64,000 nucleotides of DNA from assembly GCA_019038695.1 (NCBI GenBank), contig JAHOYZ010000010.1, positions 124,001 to 188,000 of the forward strand, written 5' to 3'. The notes beneath the pieces are model-generated. The model made no database searches and was not told the origin of the DNA. It was given only the letters and a program-made list of their open reading frames with translations. Position numbers and translations under genes: made by a program. The DNA is from Candidatus Zixiibacteriota bacterium. GTDB lineage: Bacteria > Zixibacteria > MSB-5A5 > GN15 > FEB-12. Positions 33,291 to 36,483 of the stretch are shown in pieces (within the stretch, counting starts at the first letter, position 1; each line of letters starts with the position of its first letter).

Positions 33291-34181
33291 CTACATGTCC
33301 ATGCCACCATCATAATCATCGGAATGTTTAGGATCGACTCTCAGACGATACTGAGCCGCCCAGGCTTTCATTCCATCTTCGGCATAAGGGGCAGCCTCTT
33401 CGGCAAAAATCAAGCTCTGGTCTTCGACACCATTGAGCCAGTACCAAGTCCAGGCACCCTGCTGAAGATCGGGGGCATCGTATGAGTTTTTGCGGTTTGA
33501 AGCCGTGGCCATGAACGTACCGGCCTCGACGTCATCGTGGAAACCACCGATAACGCAAGCATCAATCGTGACCAACTTCTTTGTGCAGTTAGCGGCATTG
33601 AAATATGACATTACATAGCCGTGCGTTACGTAGTACAGATCGCTCGAAATAAGAGCGGAACCGGCTGACGACTTCCCACCGTGACCGCTGTAGCAGAATG
33701 CGATTTCATCGCCCGGATCAGCGTTGTCAATCAGCCACTGCAAACCGGCGGTAATGTTATCACCCGTGCACTGCAGATCAAGATCCATCCGAACAGAGAA
33801 ACCTTCACCTTGTAGCCAGGATTTCATTGCCCGGGCATCATCATCACAGTAGTTCAGATCGTAGGCTGTTCCCTCGTAGTTGGAAATGCCGACGACATAG
33901 GCATACTTGTGAGCAGGGCTCGGATTCGGATCTATATATTCCTCGGGTTCCGGTGGTGGTTTCGGCGGCTTCTTCTGAGCCATGGCTGAGTAGTCCAAAG
34001 GTGCTTTTAGCGTGGCTGCTTCGATCTCCGCAGCCGGTCTGGTATCTACAAACTGCGGACGTTCAACCAGAACGTAGGCCGCATGGTCGATACCAGCTGA
34101 TTGGGTGGGCGGGGTCTGGTCACAGCCATAGACAAGCAGCAATGCTGCGATGGCCATTACCAAGGTTAGCAGTCGCTTCAT
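33291..34181 (-). CDS. Caspase-like (peptidase C14) lipoprotein
   Basis: A 296-residue exported cysteine protease homologue of the caspase/metacaspase fold. Residues 1-20 form a lipoprotein signal (MKRLLTLVMAIAALLLVYGC) with lipobox Cys20, so it is anchored to a membrane outside the cytoplasm. A proline-rich linker (about 65-88) follows. The catalytic domain starts at YAYVVGISNYEG; the dyad is His167 in CYSGHGG and Cys209 in TIDACVIGGF. ATG at 34181 chosen because AGGAGG lies just upstream. A terminator separates it from the anti-sigma gene upstream, so it likely has its own promoter, although the ECF sigma factor two genes upstream might drive it. Target and role are unknown. Domain call is firm. 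Confidence 0.85.
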   Translation of the reverse strand: MKRLLTLVMAIAALLLVYGCDQTPPTQSAGIDHAAYVLVERPQFVDTRPAAEIEAATLKAPLDYSAMAQKKPPKPPPEPEEYIDPNPSPAHKYAYVVGISNYEGTAYDLNYCDDDARAMKSWLQGEGFSVRMDLDLQCTGDNITAGLQWLIDNADPGDEIAFCYSGHGGKSSAGSALISSDLYYVTHGYVMSYFNAANCTKKLVTIDACVIGGFHDDVEAGTFMATASNRKNSYDAPDLQQGAWTWYWLNGVEDQSLIFAEEAAPYAEDGMKAWAAQYRLRVDPKHSDDYDGGMDM

Positions 34182-34302
34182 GAGATCCTCCTCAATCACC
34201 GTAGGGTTGACGGTTAGTGATTCTGCAAGGTACCTTTTAAGATAGCAATATGGAGCTATTTGGCAATAAAAAACTTAGCTACACAACGACCAGTGCGAAA
34301 GA

Positions 34303-34333
34303 AAAAACCCGAATGGCCTGGGCCATCCGGGTT
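34303..34333 (-). terminator. Terminator of the sigma/anti-sigma operon
   Basis: AACCCGAATGGCC and GGCCATCCGGGTT form a 13-bp near-perfect stem with a two-base loop. On the minus strand it is followed by a T run. It lies 30 bases beyond the anti-sigma stop codon. Confidence 0.85.
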
Positions 34334-34362: not shown

Positions 34363-35775
34363 TTACTTCAACAGGGTCATTTTCTTCGACTGGGTGACAT
34401 CACCAACAGTCAGGCGATAGAAATACATCCCCGAGGCAACGCGAGAGCCGGAAGTGGAAGTCGCATTCCATTCAACAGAATGAGTTCCAGCACTGACGAC
34501 ATCATCAACGAGCGTTTTGACCAACTGACCATTAACGTTGTAAATGTCCAGCGTCACATGGTCGGAAGTTGGGACAGTGTAGTCAATCGTTGTGGTGGGA
34601 TTAAATGGATTCGGGTAATTCTGCGAGAGTTCAAATCCATCCGGGAGGGTTTCATCAGCTTCCTGCTTGGCGGCACCGTCATCGCCGTCCTGATTGCAGA
34701 TGATCATCTTCTTGACAATGAGATCCGCTTCGCCTTCACCCAGATCACCGATGCCACCGACAATCATGTTTAGGCCGAGTTCTTCCAGCCTAGCTGCCGT
34801 GGCGGGATCGCTGAGGTCCAAGACTTCAACCGTTCCATCCGGAAGAGTGATATGGGCAATCATGTTGCCGTCTTCATCAGCGGTAATCTCAAGCTGTGTC
34901 TCCATCACAACACCGCTGTCGCCGCATCCGCCAACACCCTCTCCGACGAACATGAACGCGCCGTCAAAATCATCTACATTCCCGATCTGGACATCATAAT
35001 CGATATTGCCGTCTTCATCGCTGACCCAGACGGTGTATTCACCCGTTTCGCTGGAATCGAGTTCGCTCAAACAATGTAAAACGATCTGGCTGATCATTTC
35101 GCTCTCGCAGGATTCGGCATCATCGCCATCAACGACAATAGTCCGGGCCTGCATAAACAGGGTGGTATGCTTGTCACCGAGGATTTCCGAAACATCCTCG
35201 ACAACACAATTACCTATCTCGTCAAAGGCAGCCAGCACAAGCTGGACCTCTTTATCTGTCTTCAGTTCCGAAATTTTGACTTTGCAGGTCGCTTCACAGT
35301 CACCGACATCAAAAGAGGCATCCTCGACACCAAGAGCATTAAGAAGCTTTGACAGCCGATCCGAATCGAGGGCCAGGTTCCTATCGACACCGGCAAAGGC
35401 GACCTCGTAGCCGACGGTCTGTTCGAACTGAAACGGGACCAATGTACATAGCAGCAACACTACGACGGCAACACCGAGGGAGACGCTATAGCGTGGGATT
35501 CTGAGCTTGTTTACTATCTGAGTCATGATTGAAGTTTCCTTGGTTACGGTGCGCTTGTTTAGTGCTACCCGGGACTCAACGCGGGCCATTTGCTCGGACC
35601 ACGGAATGGTCTCGGCATTGTCTGAGGCGGCGGCCGCCTGAAGCGTCTGATGCAGTTGCAACGCGGCTTTCGCCTGTCGGGCACATGCCGGGCATACCCG
35701 GAGGTGGTCCTGCAGGTTCTGATCTTCGGCGAACACCGATTCGGTTAGTCTGCGTCTGGCTTCATGACAACGCAT
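34363..35775 (-). CDS. Anti-sigma factor with C-terminal T9SS-like sorting domain
   Basis: A 470-residue membrane-spanning protein. Residues 1-40 look like a zinc-binding anti-sigma domain (His24-x3-Cys28-x2-Cys31 in HLRVCPAC). One membrane segment is at about 97-115 (VSLGVAVVVLLLCTLVPF). Residues about 120-385 are an acidic extracytoplasmic region without known domain, with three or more cysteines (CEATCKVKI, ESCESEM). Residues about 388-470 are a FlgD/Por-like sorting domain: LSQNYPNPFNPTTTIDYTVP, then GQLVKTLVDD and SGMYFYRLTVGD...KKMTLLK. Overlap of 31 bases with the sigma gene supports the anti-sigma role. A protein held in the inner membrane should not need an outer-membrane sorting tag, so the combination is odd. 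ATG start. Confidence 0.8.
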   Translation of the reverse strand: MRCHEARRRLTESVFAEDQNLQDHLRVCPACARQAKAALQLHQTLQAAAASDNAETIPWSEQMARVESRVALNKRTVTKETSIMTQIVNKLRIPRYSVSLGVAVVVLLLCTLVPFQFEQTVGYEVAFAGVDRNLALDSDRLSKLLNALGVEDASFDVGDCEATCKVKISELKTDKEVQLVLAAFDEIGNCVVEDVSEILGDKHTTLFMQARTIVVDGDDAESCESEMISQIVLHCLSELDSSETGEYTVWVSDEDGNIDYDVQIGNVDDFDGAFMFVGEGVGGCGDSGVVMETQLEITADEDGNMIAHITLPDGTVEVLDLSDPATAARLEELGLNMIVGGIGDLGEGEADLIVKKMIICNQDGDDGAAKQEADETLPDGFELSQNYPNPFNPTTTIDYTVPTSDHVTLDIYNVNGQLVKTLVDDVVSAGTHSVEWNATSTSGSRVASGMYFYRLTVGDVTQSKKMTLLK

Positions 35776-36323
35776 ATCTTGTCCTCCGTCAAGGCAGGTT
35801 TCACAGTTACGATTCGGGCGGCTCGTGATTGAAACCTGGCCAGCGTTTCTCTCATCTTCCGCCGGGCTCTCAGCAGCCTGACTTTGATCGCTCCTTCCGT
35901 CTTGCCGGTCAAAGCGGCCAACTCGTTGGCTGTCCAGCCCTCAAGTTCGAACAAGGTCACCAACGCCTGATCTTCAGTTGAGACAGCCTCGAAGGCTCGC
36001 TGAAGATTCCGTCGCGCGGCATACCCGTCCGTCGGATCAAATCCGTCGAGGGAGTCCTCGATCTCAGCTGTCATGTGGATTACGCGTTTCCACCATGGTC
36101 GCCGAATACGGTTCTTGAAAGTGTTGACTACAATCCGATAGAACCAGGGTCGGATGGCGGTCGTGTCGCGCAGAGAGTCGAAATTGGTCACGGCAGTTAC
36201 CAGGGCGTCCTGAAACAGGTCGTCGCCGTCTTCCCGATTTCCCATCAGCTTGCGACAATACGCGCGCGCTTGTTGATGCTGGGGCTCAATGAGCTTCCAG
36301 AAAAGGTTCCTTGTTCTGTCCAT
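35745..36323 (-). CDS. ECF-type RNA polymerase sigma factor
   Basis: A 192-residue sigma-70 family factor of the extracytoplasmic-function group. Region 2 includes YCRKLMGNREDGDDLFQDALV and RPWFYRIVVNTFKNRIRR; region 4 includes ALVTLFELEGWTANELAALTGKTEGAIKVRLLRARRKM. Its end overlaps the anti-sigma gene by 31 bases, so the two are translated together. It should be held inactive by that partner until an envelope signal comes. No consensus ECF promoter was identified upstream. ATG start. Confidence 0.93.
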   Translation of the reverse strand: MDRTRNLFWKLIEPQHQQARAYCRKLMGNREDGDDLFQDALVTAVTNFDSLRDTTAIRPWFYRIVVNTFKNRIRRPWWKRVIHMTAEIEDSLDGFDPTDGYAARRNLQRAFEAVSTEDQALVTLFELEGWTANELAALTGKTEGAIKVRLLRARRKMRETLARFQSRAARIVTVKPALTEDKICVVMKPDAD

Positions 36324-36483
36324 CTACTACTTAGACACACTAATAGGGGCAAAAGTTACGGGCTAACCCACAAAACCTCAAGTTCCACTTGTCCACCAGT
36401 GACCTTTGTGTTTCCTTAAAGCTGCTCCAAGAGAACCTACAGCATCGAAGTACATAGCCACGCTATCGACACGAGGATATTGT

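Follow-up and report, generated by a model that had tools for sequence, protein, structure and literature searches.

A zinc anti-sigma-like gene with a type IX secretion sorting tail and a conserved predicted internal translation start in Candidatus Zixiibacteriota

The sigma/anti-sigma gene pair

We analyzed a stretch of 64,000 nucleotides from a Candidatus Zixiibacteriota bacterium (GCA_019038695.1, contig JAHOYZ010000010.1, positions 124,001 to 188,000; hereafter "the window"). According to the open reading frames, positions 34363-36323 of the window (minus strand) carry a gene for an ECF sigma factor and a gene for a 470-aa anti-sigma protein that share 31 nt (Table 1). The sigma factor scored above the Pfam cut-offs for both Sigma70_r2 and Sigma70_r4_2 and above the cut-off of 42.9 bits for TIGR02937, and it comprises only regions 2 and 4 within approx. 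190 aa, i.e., the composition that defines ECF sigma factors. The 31-nt overlap, the conservation of the pair in differing surroundings and the predicted terminator after the second gene suggest that the two genes are probably co-transcribed. Directly past this operon and its terminator lies a gene (33291-34199, minus strand) whose predicted product is a lipoprotein (LVYGC) that carries a caspase-like C14 domain (PF00656, 69 bits).

Table 1. Coordinates of the features of the sigma/anti-sigma locus, given as positions in the window.
Feature	Position	Strand	Evidence or remark
ECF-type promoter GTAACTTTT-N13-TGTCTAAG	36330..36359	-	GTCT begins 13 nt 5' of sigma ATG
ECF sigma factor, 192 aa	35745..36323	-	PF04542 45.8 bits, PF08281 38.8 bits, TIGR02937 76.9 bits
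Shine-Dalgarno GGAGG of first start (anti-sigma Met1)	35783..35787	-	Read from sequence; anti-SD duplex -9.5 kcal/mol
Sigma/anti-sigma coding overlap, 31 nt	35745..35775	-	Exact in 24/27 tailed members and several untailed ones
Full-length anti-sigma, 470 aa	34363..35775	-	Zinc motif, membrane helix, ferredoxin-like outer domain, acidic linker, T9SS type A tail
Zinc anti-sigma motif region, aa 1-32 (C3, H24, C28, C31)	35680..35775	-	Invariant columns in 11 relatives
Internal Shine-Dalgarno AAGGA of predicted second start	35537..35541	-	AGGA/GGAG-type core in 37/38 long members
Internal ATG (Met84), ~13-14 residues before helix	35524..35526	-	38/38 long-ectodomain members, 1/15 short
Predicted second product, 387 aa from Met84	34363..35526	-	Would have signal-peptide-like N terminus, ectodomain and T9SS tail, and lack the zinc domain
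Membrane helix / h-region, aa 97-115	35431..35487	-	Hydropathy peak and AF2 helix
Conserved ferredoxin-like outer domain, aa 116-204	35164..35430	-	AF2 pLDDT ~85; Foldseek matches PII-like SbtB
AFA|G, aa 126-129, possible signal peptidase I site	35389..35400	-	A-x-A or A-x-G in 27/27 tailed members
T9SS type A sorting domain, aa 377-470, ends KKMTLLK	34366..34647	-	TIGR04183 44 bits; cargo-only model 137.0 bits
Intrinsic terminator just 3' of anti-sigma stop	34306..34333	-	12-bp stem, 4-nt loop, T-rich tail

Domain organization of the anti-sigma protein

A preliminary description of this locus had reported an anti-sigma reading frame that overlaps the ECF sigma gene by 31 bases and encodes a zinc anti-sigma N terminus, one membrane segment, a long acidic outer region and a T9SS-type C-terminal sorting domain, and our analyses agree with this architecture throughout. 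To that description we add the two translation starts (the internal one predicted), the promoter, the terminator and the assignment to the phylum. The HxxxCxxC motif with an upstream Cys that characterizes ZAS proteins is present and conserved, and C3, H24, C28 and C31 are invariant in relatives. The curated zinc anti-sigma models, on the other hand, were not reached, with no zf-HC2 match at E <= 0.1 and 19.1 bits for the NF052375 "antisigma" model as compared to its cut-off of 100. We thus regard the product as anti-sigma-like rather than as formally assigned, since the reading rests on motif, gene order and topology.

Hydropathy and the AF2 model agree on a single hydrophobic helix (approx. 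aa 97-115), which is basic on its N-terminal side. The AF2 model is weak overall (pTM 0.28, mean pLDDT 61.8), with the tail at pLDDT ~84. A PDB profile search with the domain that follows the helix found no sequence relative. This predicted periplasmic, ferredoxin-like domain contains two invariant cysteines in a CxxxC arrangement (CEATC, aa 160-164; C160 and C164), which could possibly form a disulphide or a redox or metal site.

Promoter of the operon and search for sigma targets

A near-identical promoter was found ahead of 43 of the 45 family sigma starts that were extracted (none was found for L055 and L123), with a family consensus of GTWAC-CTTT ... TGTCTWAG, a spacing of 17-18 nt and the GTCT mostly 12-14 nt before the ATG. 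Conservation of this promoter before the sigma genes implies autoregulation, and the operon is thus probably self-activating, as judged from its sequence. As the GTCT of the -10 element is only ~13 nt from the sigma ATG, the 5' leader would be very short or absent, and the sigma mRNA may be leaderless or close to it.

When the window's genome was searched with the consensus promoter at up to 2 mismatches, the sigma factor's own promoter was the only match. Two other exact matches of a looser promoter pattern occurred in this genome, neither of which precedes a correctly oriented gene, and a search with 3 mismatches gave 17 matches as compared to 28 for a reversed control pattern. Two of the 3-mismatch matches lie 19 nt 5' of a PorV-family gene (L198; G000:C26:120106-120135) and just 5' of a TolC-like gene (L205; G000:C26:133354-133383); as both sit in short gaps directly downstream of a same-strand gene, we treat them as leads only. 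Across other genomes, a perfect promoter match was found upstream of a MacB-like ABC operon (L176; G051:C290) and a match with one mismatch precedes a MacA-like/MacB-like operon (L177; G028:C64), while the remaining matches of the cross-genome pattern (in G020 and G078) were without an exporter-operon context. These matches are suggestive of MacAB-like envelope exporters as sigma targets in two other species, and are too few for a claim. Overall, the promoter searches in the window's genome and in the others yielded no convincing T9SS-gene target for the sigma factor.

Distribution and inheritance of the family

Using a profile of the N-terminal 185 residues, we found relatives of the anti-sigma protein in 62 of 132 genomes of the phylum; these relatives come from Ca. 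Zixiibacteriota (FCB group). A candidate for spread beyond Zixiibacteriota, a contig titled as Calditrichaeota CLD4 (QQUK01000325.1; L073, G074), was set aside because it sits in the window's own family and its title is probably outdated. The 53 members examined comprise 27 with a T9SS tail, 11 untailed members with a long ectodomain and 15 short members; two of the tailed members are cut by contig ends, and one of these two (L059) was counted as tailed through a tail fragment on another contig of the same genome.

The search for further anti-sigma genes with the same tail thus returned a conserved architecture, and the arrangement of sigma gene, anti-sigma gene and tail was seen in over 20 species, mostly with an identical overlap of 31 nt, which argues against chance. 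Since the overlap is exact in most tailed members while the gene surroundings differ, the sigma/anti-sigma pair itself appears to be what is conserved. On a tree of the N-terminal part, presence of the tail required 3 changes as compared to 17.9 for shuffled labels, and on a tree built from the tails only (few columns) the family tails cluster, with 4 changes as compared to ~21. The few changes on both trees suggest that the tail was mostly inherited vertically. The long untailed members (L130, L135-L137, L140, L141 and L143-L147; ~265-360 aa) form a sister class that carries the same internal Shine-Dalgarno-ATG pair and whose proteins contain repeated acidic beta-alpha modules.

A conserved internal translation start

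An in-frame ATG located 12-19 residues before the helix was observed in all 27 tailed and all 11 long untailed members, and in only one of the 15 short members, where it is without a Shine-Dalgarno sequence (energy +0.4). In the window, the product predicted to start at this ATG (Met84) begins MTQIVNKLRIPRYSVSLGVAVVVLLLCTLVPF..., i.e., with a basic n-region and a hydrophobic stretch that together resemble a signal peptide. With the canonical anti-SD sequence assumed in place of that of the window genome's 16S, the mean anti-SD duplex energy was -7.3 kcal/mol at the internal start, as compared to -2.1 kcal/mol at other in-frame ATGs and approx. -7.5 kcal/mol at the first start. The spacing is also start-like, with mostly 13 nt from the GG to the ATG.

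We compared the energy of the internal Shine-Dalgarno sequence to that obtained by synonymous-codon resampling, a test that was devised after the conserved Met had been noticed and whose null keeps the protein sequence fixed. Among 38 genes, resampling gave -3.65 +/- 0.40, and none of 1000 resamplings was as low as the observed value (z = -9.2). The result was similar for a thinned set of 30 genes from which near relatives had been taken out and in which the ATG was chosen by position only (0/500; z = -8.1). Moreover, the purine core is not tied to one codon register: all three are represented, and the residue pairs that it encodes vary (KE, QE, EE, RE, KG, IG, RN or LG), which implies that the constraint acts on nucleotides. 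These data indicate that the predicted internal ribosome-binding site is under nucleotide-level selection, and it is very likely that the internal start at Met84 is used and that one gene thus gives two nested proteins.

As long relatives without a tail have the internal start too, it cannot serve T9SS export alone. An isoform free of the anti-sigma domain is therefore likely to be useful in itself, to which the tail would add T9SS routing.

The C-terminal tail and the T9SS machinery

The extreme C terminus (approx. aa 387-466) matched TIGR04183 at 44 bits (cut-off 23) and PF18962 (Por_Secre_tail) at 37 bits (cut-off 27), and the same region also matched FlgD_ig at 38.8 bits (cut-off 27). To compare the tails with cargo, we used a model trained on 53 cargo tails alone, so that the cargo rows are within the training set and the family rows outside it: 22 of the 25 complete tailed members scored 116-141 bits, as compared to 98-143 bits (median 125.5) for cargo tails. 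The other three (L123, L129 and L131) have decayed tails that scored 32-62 bits, in genomes that retain SprA, and represent natural experiments on the loss of sorting function. Intact tails retain NPFNP as well as two lysines, that of motif E and the C-terminal one (both in 22/22). Lysines of motif E are needed for secretion (PMC10202324), and a near-invariant Lys of the CTD is in contact with PorV, most of the remaining conserved positions serving to specify the fold (PMC10994853). Judged by sequence, the anti-sigma protein ends in a genuine sorting domain of T9SS type A.

The preliminary description had made its interpretation depend on T9SS genes being present in the same genome, and they are: we found SprA (506.9 bits, over frame), PorU (649.6 bits) and nine PorV-family ORFs above cut-off. 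The nine PorV-family ORFs in this one genome (G000) may be specialized shuttles. The GldM model gave no match in the window's genome, and the same model was silent in all controls too. Given that SprA was found in 129 of the 132 Ca. Zixiibacteriota genomes, i.e., nearly throughout the phylum, co-occurrence of tail and T9SS is in itself not discriminating.

Proposed mechanism and alternative explanations

The reading that we consider likely is that a self-activating operon encodes, in its second gene, both a membrane anti-sigma factor and a nested copy that resembles a T9SS substrate. Translation from the first start would give the full-length protein, whose cytoplasmic zinc domain would hold the sigma factor and whose helix would cross the inner membrane, so that the ferredoxin-like domain, the acidic linker and the T9SS tail would be placed outside this membrane. 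Translation from Met84 would give a copy without the anti-sigma domain, with a signal-peptide-like N terminus and the T9SS tail as its C terminus, which may be sent to the surface by the T9SS, perhaps after cleavage at AxA|G. We propose that the two forms would communicate through their shared ectodomain and that the amount of sigma factor released would depend on the condition of export or of the envelope. More tentatively, export-competent copies might normally leave the periplasm, and might build up and interact with the membrane form once export or the envelope is compromised. It is equally speculative that the balance of exported and retained copies would tell the anti-sigma factor the state of outer-membrane export, which would make this one gene a secretion-coupled sigma switch.

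The preliminary description had argued that export "cannot apply" to a protein fixed in the inner membrane and that the sorting domain may act as a sensor. We find no support for this argument in that form, as the conserved internal ribosome-binding site and the Met84 ATG would give a Sec/T9SS-like substrate; the apparent contradiction of a protein that is fixed in the inner membrane and yet marked for sorting is largely resolved by the internal start with its own Shine-Dalgarno sequence. Its further suggestion, that the outer part may be cleaved and released, survives in changed form as a separately translated, export-ready copy.

Only the full-length protein may matter, with its tail spanning the periplasm, docking to PorV/SprA and signalling translocon status to the sigma factor. 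Three points would fit such a sensor: the intact, cargo-like tail; stalled type A substrates, which hold their CTD in SprA/PorV with passenger density at the periplasmic rim (PMC10994853); and PorA of P. gingivalis, a CTD protein placed upstream of an ECF sigma factor (PMC7712824). It would, however, leave the nucleotide-level conservation of the internal Shine-Dalgarno sequence and ATG unexplained, and the promoter searches found no T9SS target; we consider this explanation unlikely.

The tail could also be an Ig-like structural module of the periplasmic ectodomain that is unrelated to T9SS export. Its FlgD_ig match, the FlgD chains that were the best PDB matches of the tail profile by sequence and the related anti-sigma proteins that exist without the tail are all consistent with such a module. 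The core fold alone is indecisive, as a Foldseek search with the AF2 model gave the translocon-bound CTDs of RemZ and RemA, PorU, PorZ and the mirolase CTD and also FlgD, while FlgD is best by sequence. However, motifs beyond the FlgD-like core are kept in the intact tails (NPFNP, motif E and the terminal Lys), the tail scores equal those of true cargo, and the other tailed ORFs of the genome resemble ordinary secreted proteins. Among 40 such ORFs retrieved from the window's genome, 37 have a hydrophobic, signal-like N terminus (by a simple hydropathy test rather than SignalP), the remaining three being without a start because they are cut by a contig end or by the fetched stretch, and none has a zinc anti-sigma motif. 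These numbers do not agree with a plain FlgD-like domain common on inner-membrane proteins, the finding that would have spoken against the original proposal, and we regard a purely structural role as quite improbable.

Internal SD-like sequences can also act as ribosome pause sites, and such pausing has been proposed before for the vicinity of membrane segments. The internal Shine-Dalgarno sequence, found a short distance ahead of the helix in all long members, could accordingly be a programmed pause that aids helix insertion, with Met84 incidental. The short members, however, have the same helix without such a sequence (only one has the ATG, with an energy of +0.4), and the ATG is present at start-like spacing in all 38 long members, which makes a pause alone a rather remote explanation.

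Finally, we considered the candidate signal peptidase site. The first start gives no Sec signal peptide; the predicted form starting at Met84 has an N terminus that resembles one, with a candidate cleavage site that is unusually distant. A-x-[AG] at positions 126-128 was observed in 27/27 tailed members, 0/11 long untailed members and approx. 7/15 short members, with L064 and L123 read by eye. This correlation with the tail fits a signal peptidase site that is kept with the tail, but the members are related. AxA|G is located ~13 residues past the hydrophobic stretch, whereas the distance was -1 to 7 residues for 31 of the 33 cargo proteins scored, and the AF2 model places the site in a beta strand of the confidently modeled ferredoxin-like domain. 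This distance and location make cleavage at AxA|G doubtful, and an uncleaved Met84 product would remain anchored in the membrane. Least probable of all is a single start from which the full-length protein would be cleaved at AxA|G, with the ectodomain leaving as T9SS cargo and the anti-sigma stub retained in the membrane: the intact tail and the presence of A-x-[AG] in every tailed and no long untailed member would agree with it, but the site is far from the helix and within a predicted strand, is common in short untailed members too, and the internal start would be left unexplained.

Comparison with known systems

By motif and gene order, the gene pair is of a known kind, an ECF sigma factor with a zinc anti-sigma protein, and the conserved predicted internal start in a T9SS-tailed anti-sigma gene is the chief new finding. 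ZAS anti-sigma proteins are likewise encoded beside ECF sigma genes, with the sigma gene first, an overlap, HxxxCxxC with an upstream Cys, one helix and an autoregulatory promoter. Unlike them, the protein described here has a long acidic ectodomain, a T9SS tail and an internal start, and it remains below the zf-HC2 threshold. T9SS type A cargo (TIGR04183/PF18962) is similar in tail sequence, score range and C-terminal lysines, and the Met84 product would share its Sec-like start. The first product differs from cargo by the cytoplasmic anti-sigma domain before the helix, and the candidate cleavage site is atypically far.

The literature searched contained no report of a T9SS-tailed anti-sigma factor or of an anti-sigma factor that has an internal start, and no earlier report of T9SS in Zixibacteria. 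For the relay of T9SS status to gene expression, the PorA-PorXY-SigP pathway of P. gingivalis, where a T9SS-CTD protein is placed upstream of an ECF sigma factor (PMC7712824), was the sole CTD-linked case found in the literature searched. It is the nearest functional precedent, as a T9SS-CTD protein is tied to an ECF sigma factor in both. PorA, however, is a separate surface protein that acts through a two-component system, whereas here the tail is on the anti-sigma protein itself. With the sorting signal on the anti-sigma gene, a second start would be a simple route to placing one sensor domain in two compartments. As both products share one frame, such a design is invisible to protein-level annotation; if it is true, domains that seem not to belong together, such as a sorting signal and an inner-membrane anchor, can point to a second product that would otherwise be overlooked.

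RsgI of Clostridium thermocellum (PMC12203970) is also a membrane anti-sigma factor with a large outer sensing region and serves as a works-like comparison only. Its host is a monoderm without an outer membrane or T9SS. In the long and short forms of CheA, and in SafA, an internal ribosome-binding site yields an N-terminally shorter protein. The gene described here would differ from these nested starts in that its two products would go to different cell compartments.
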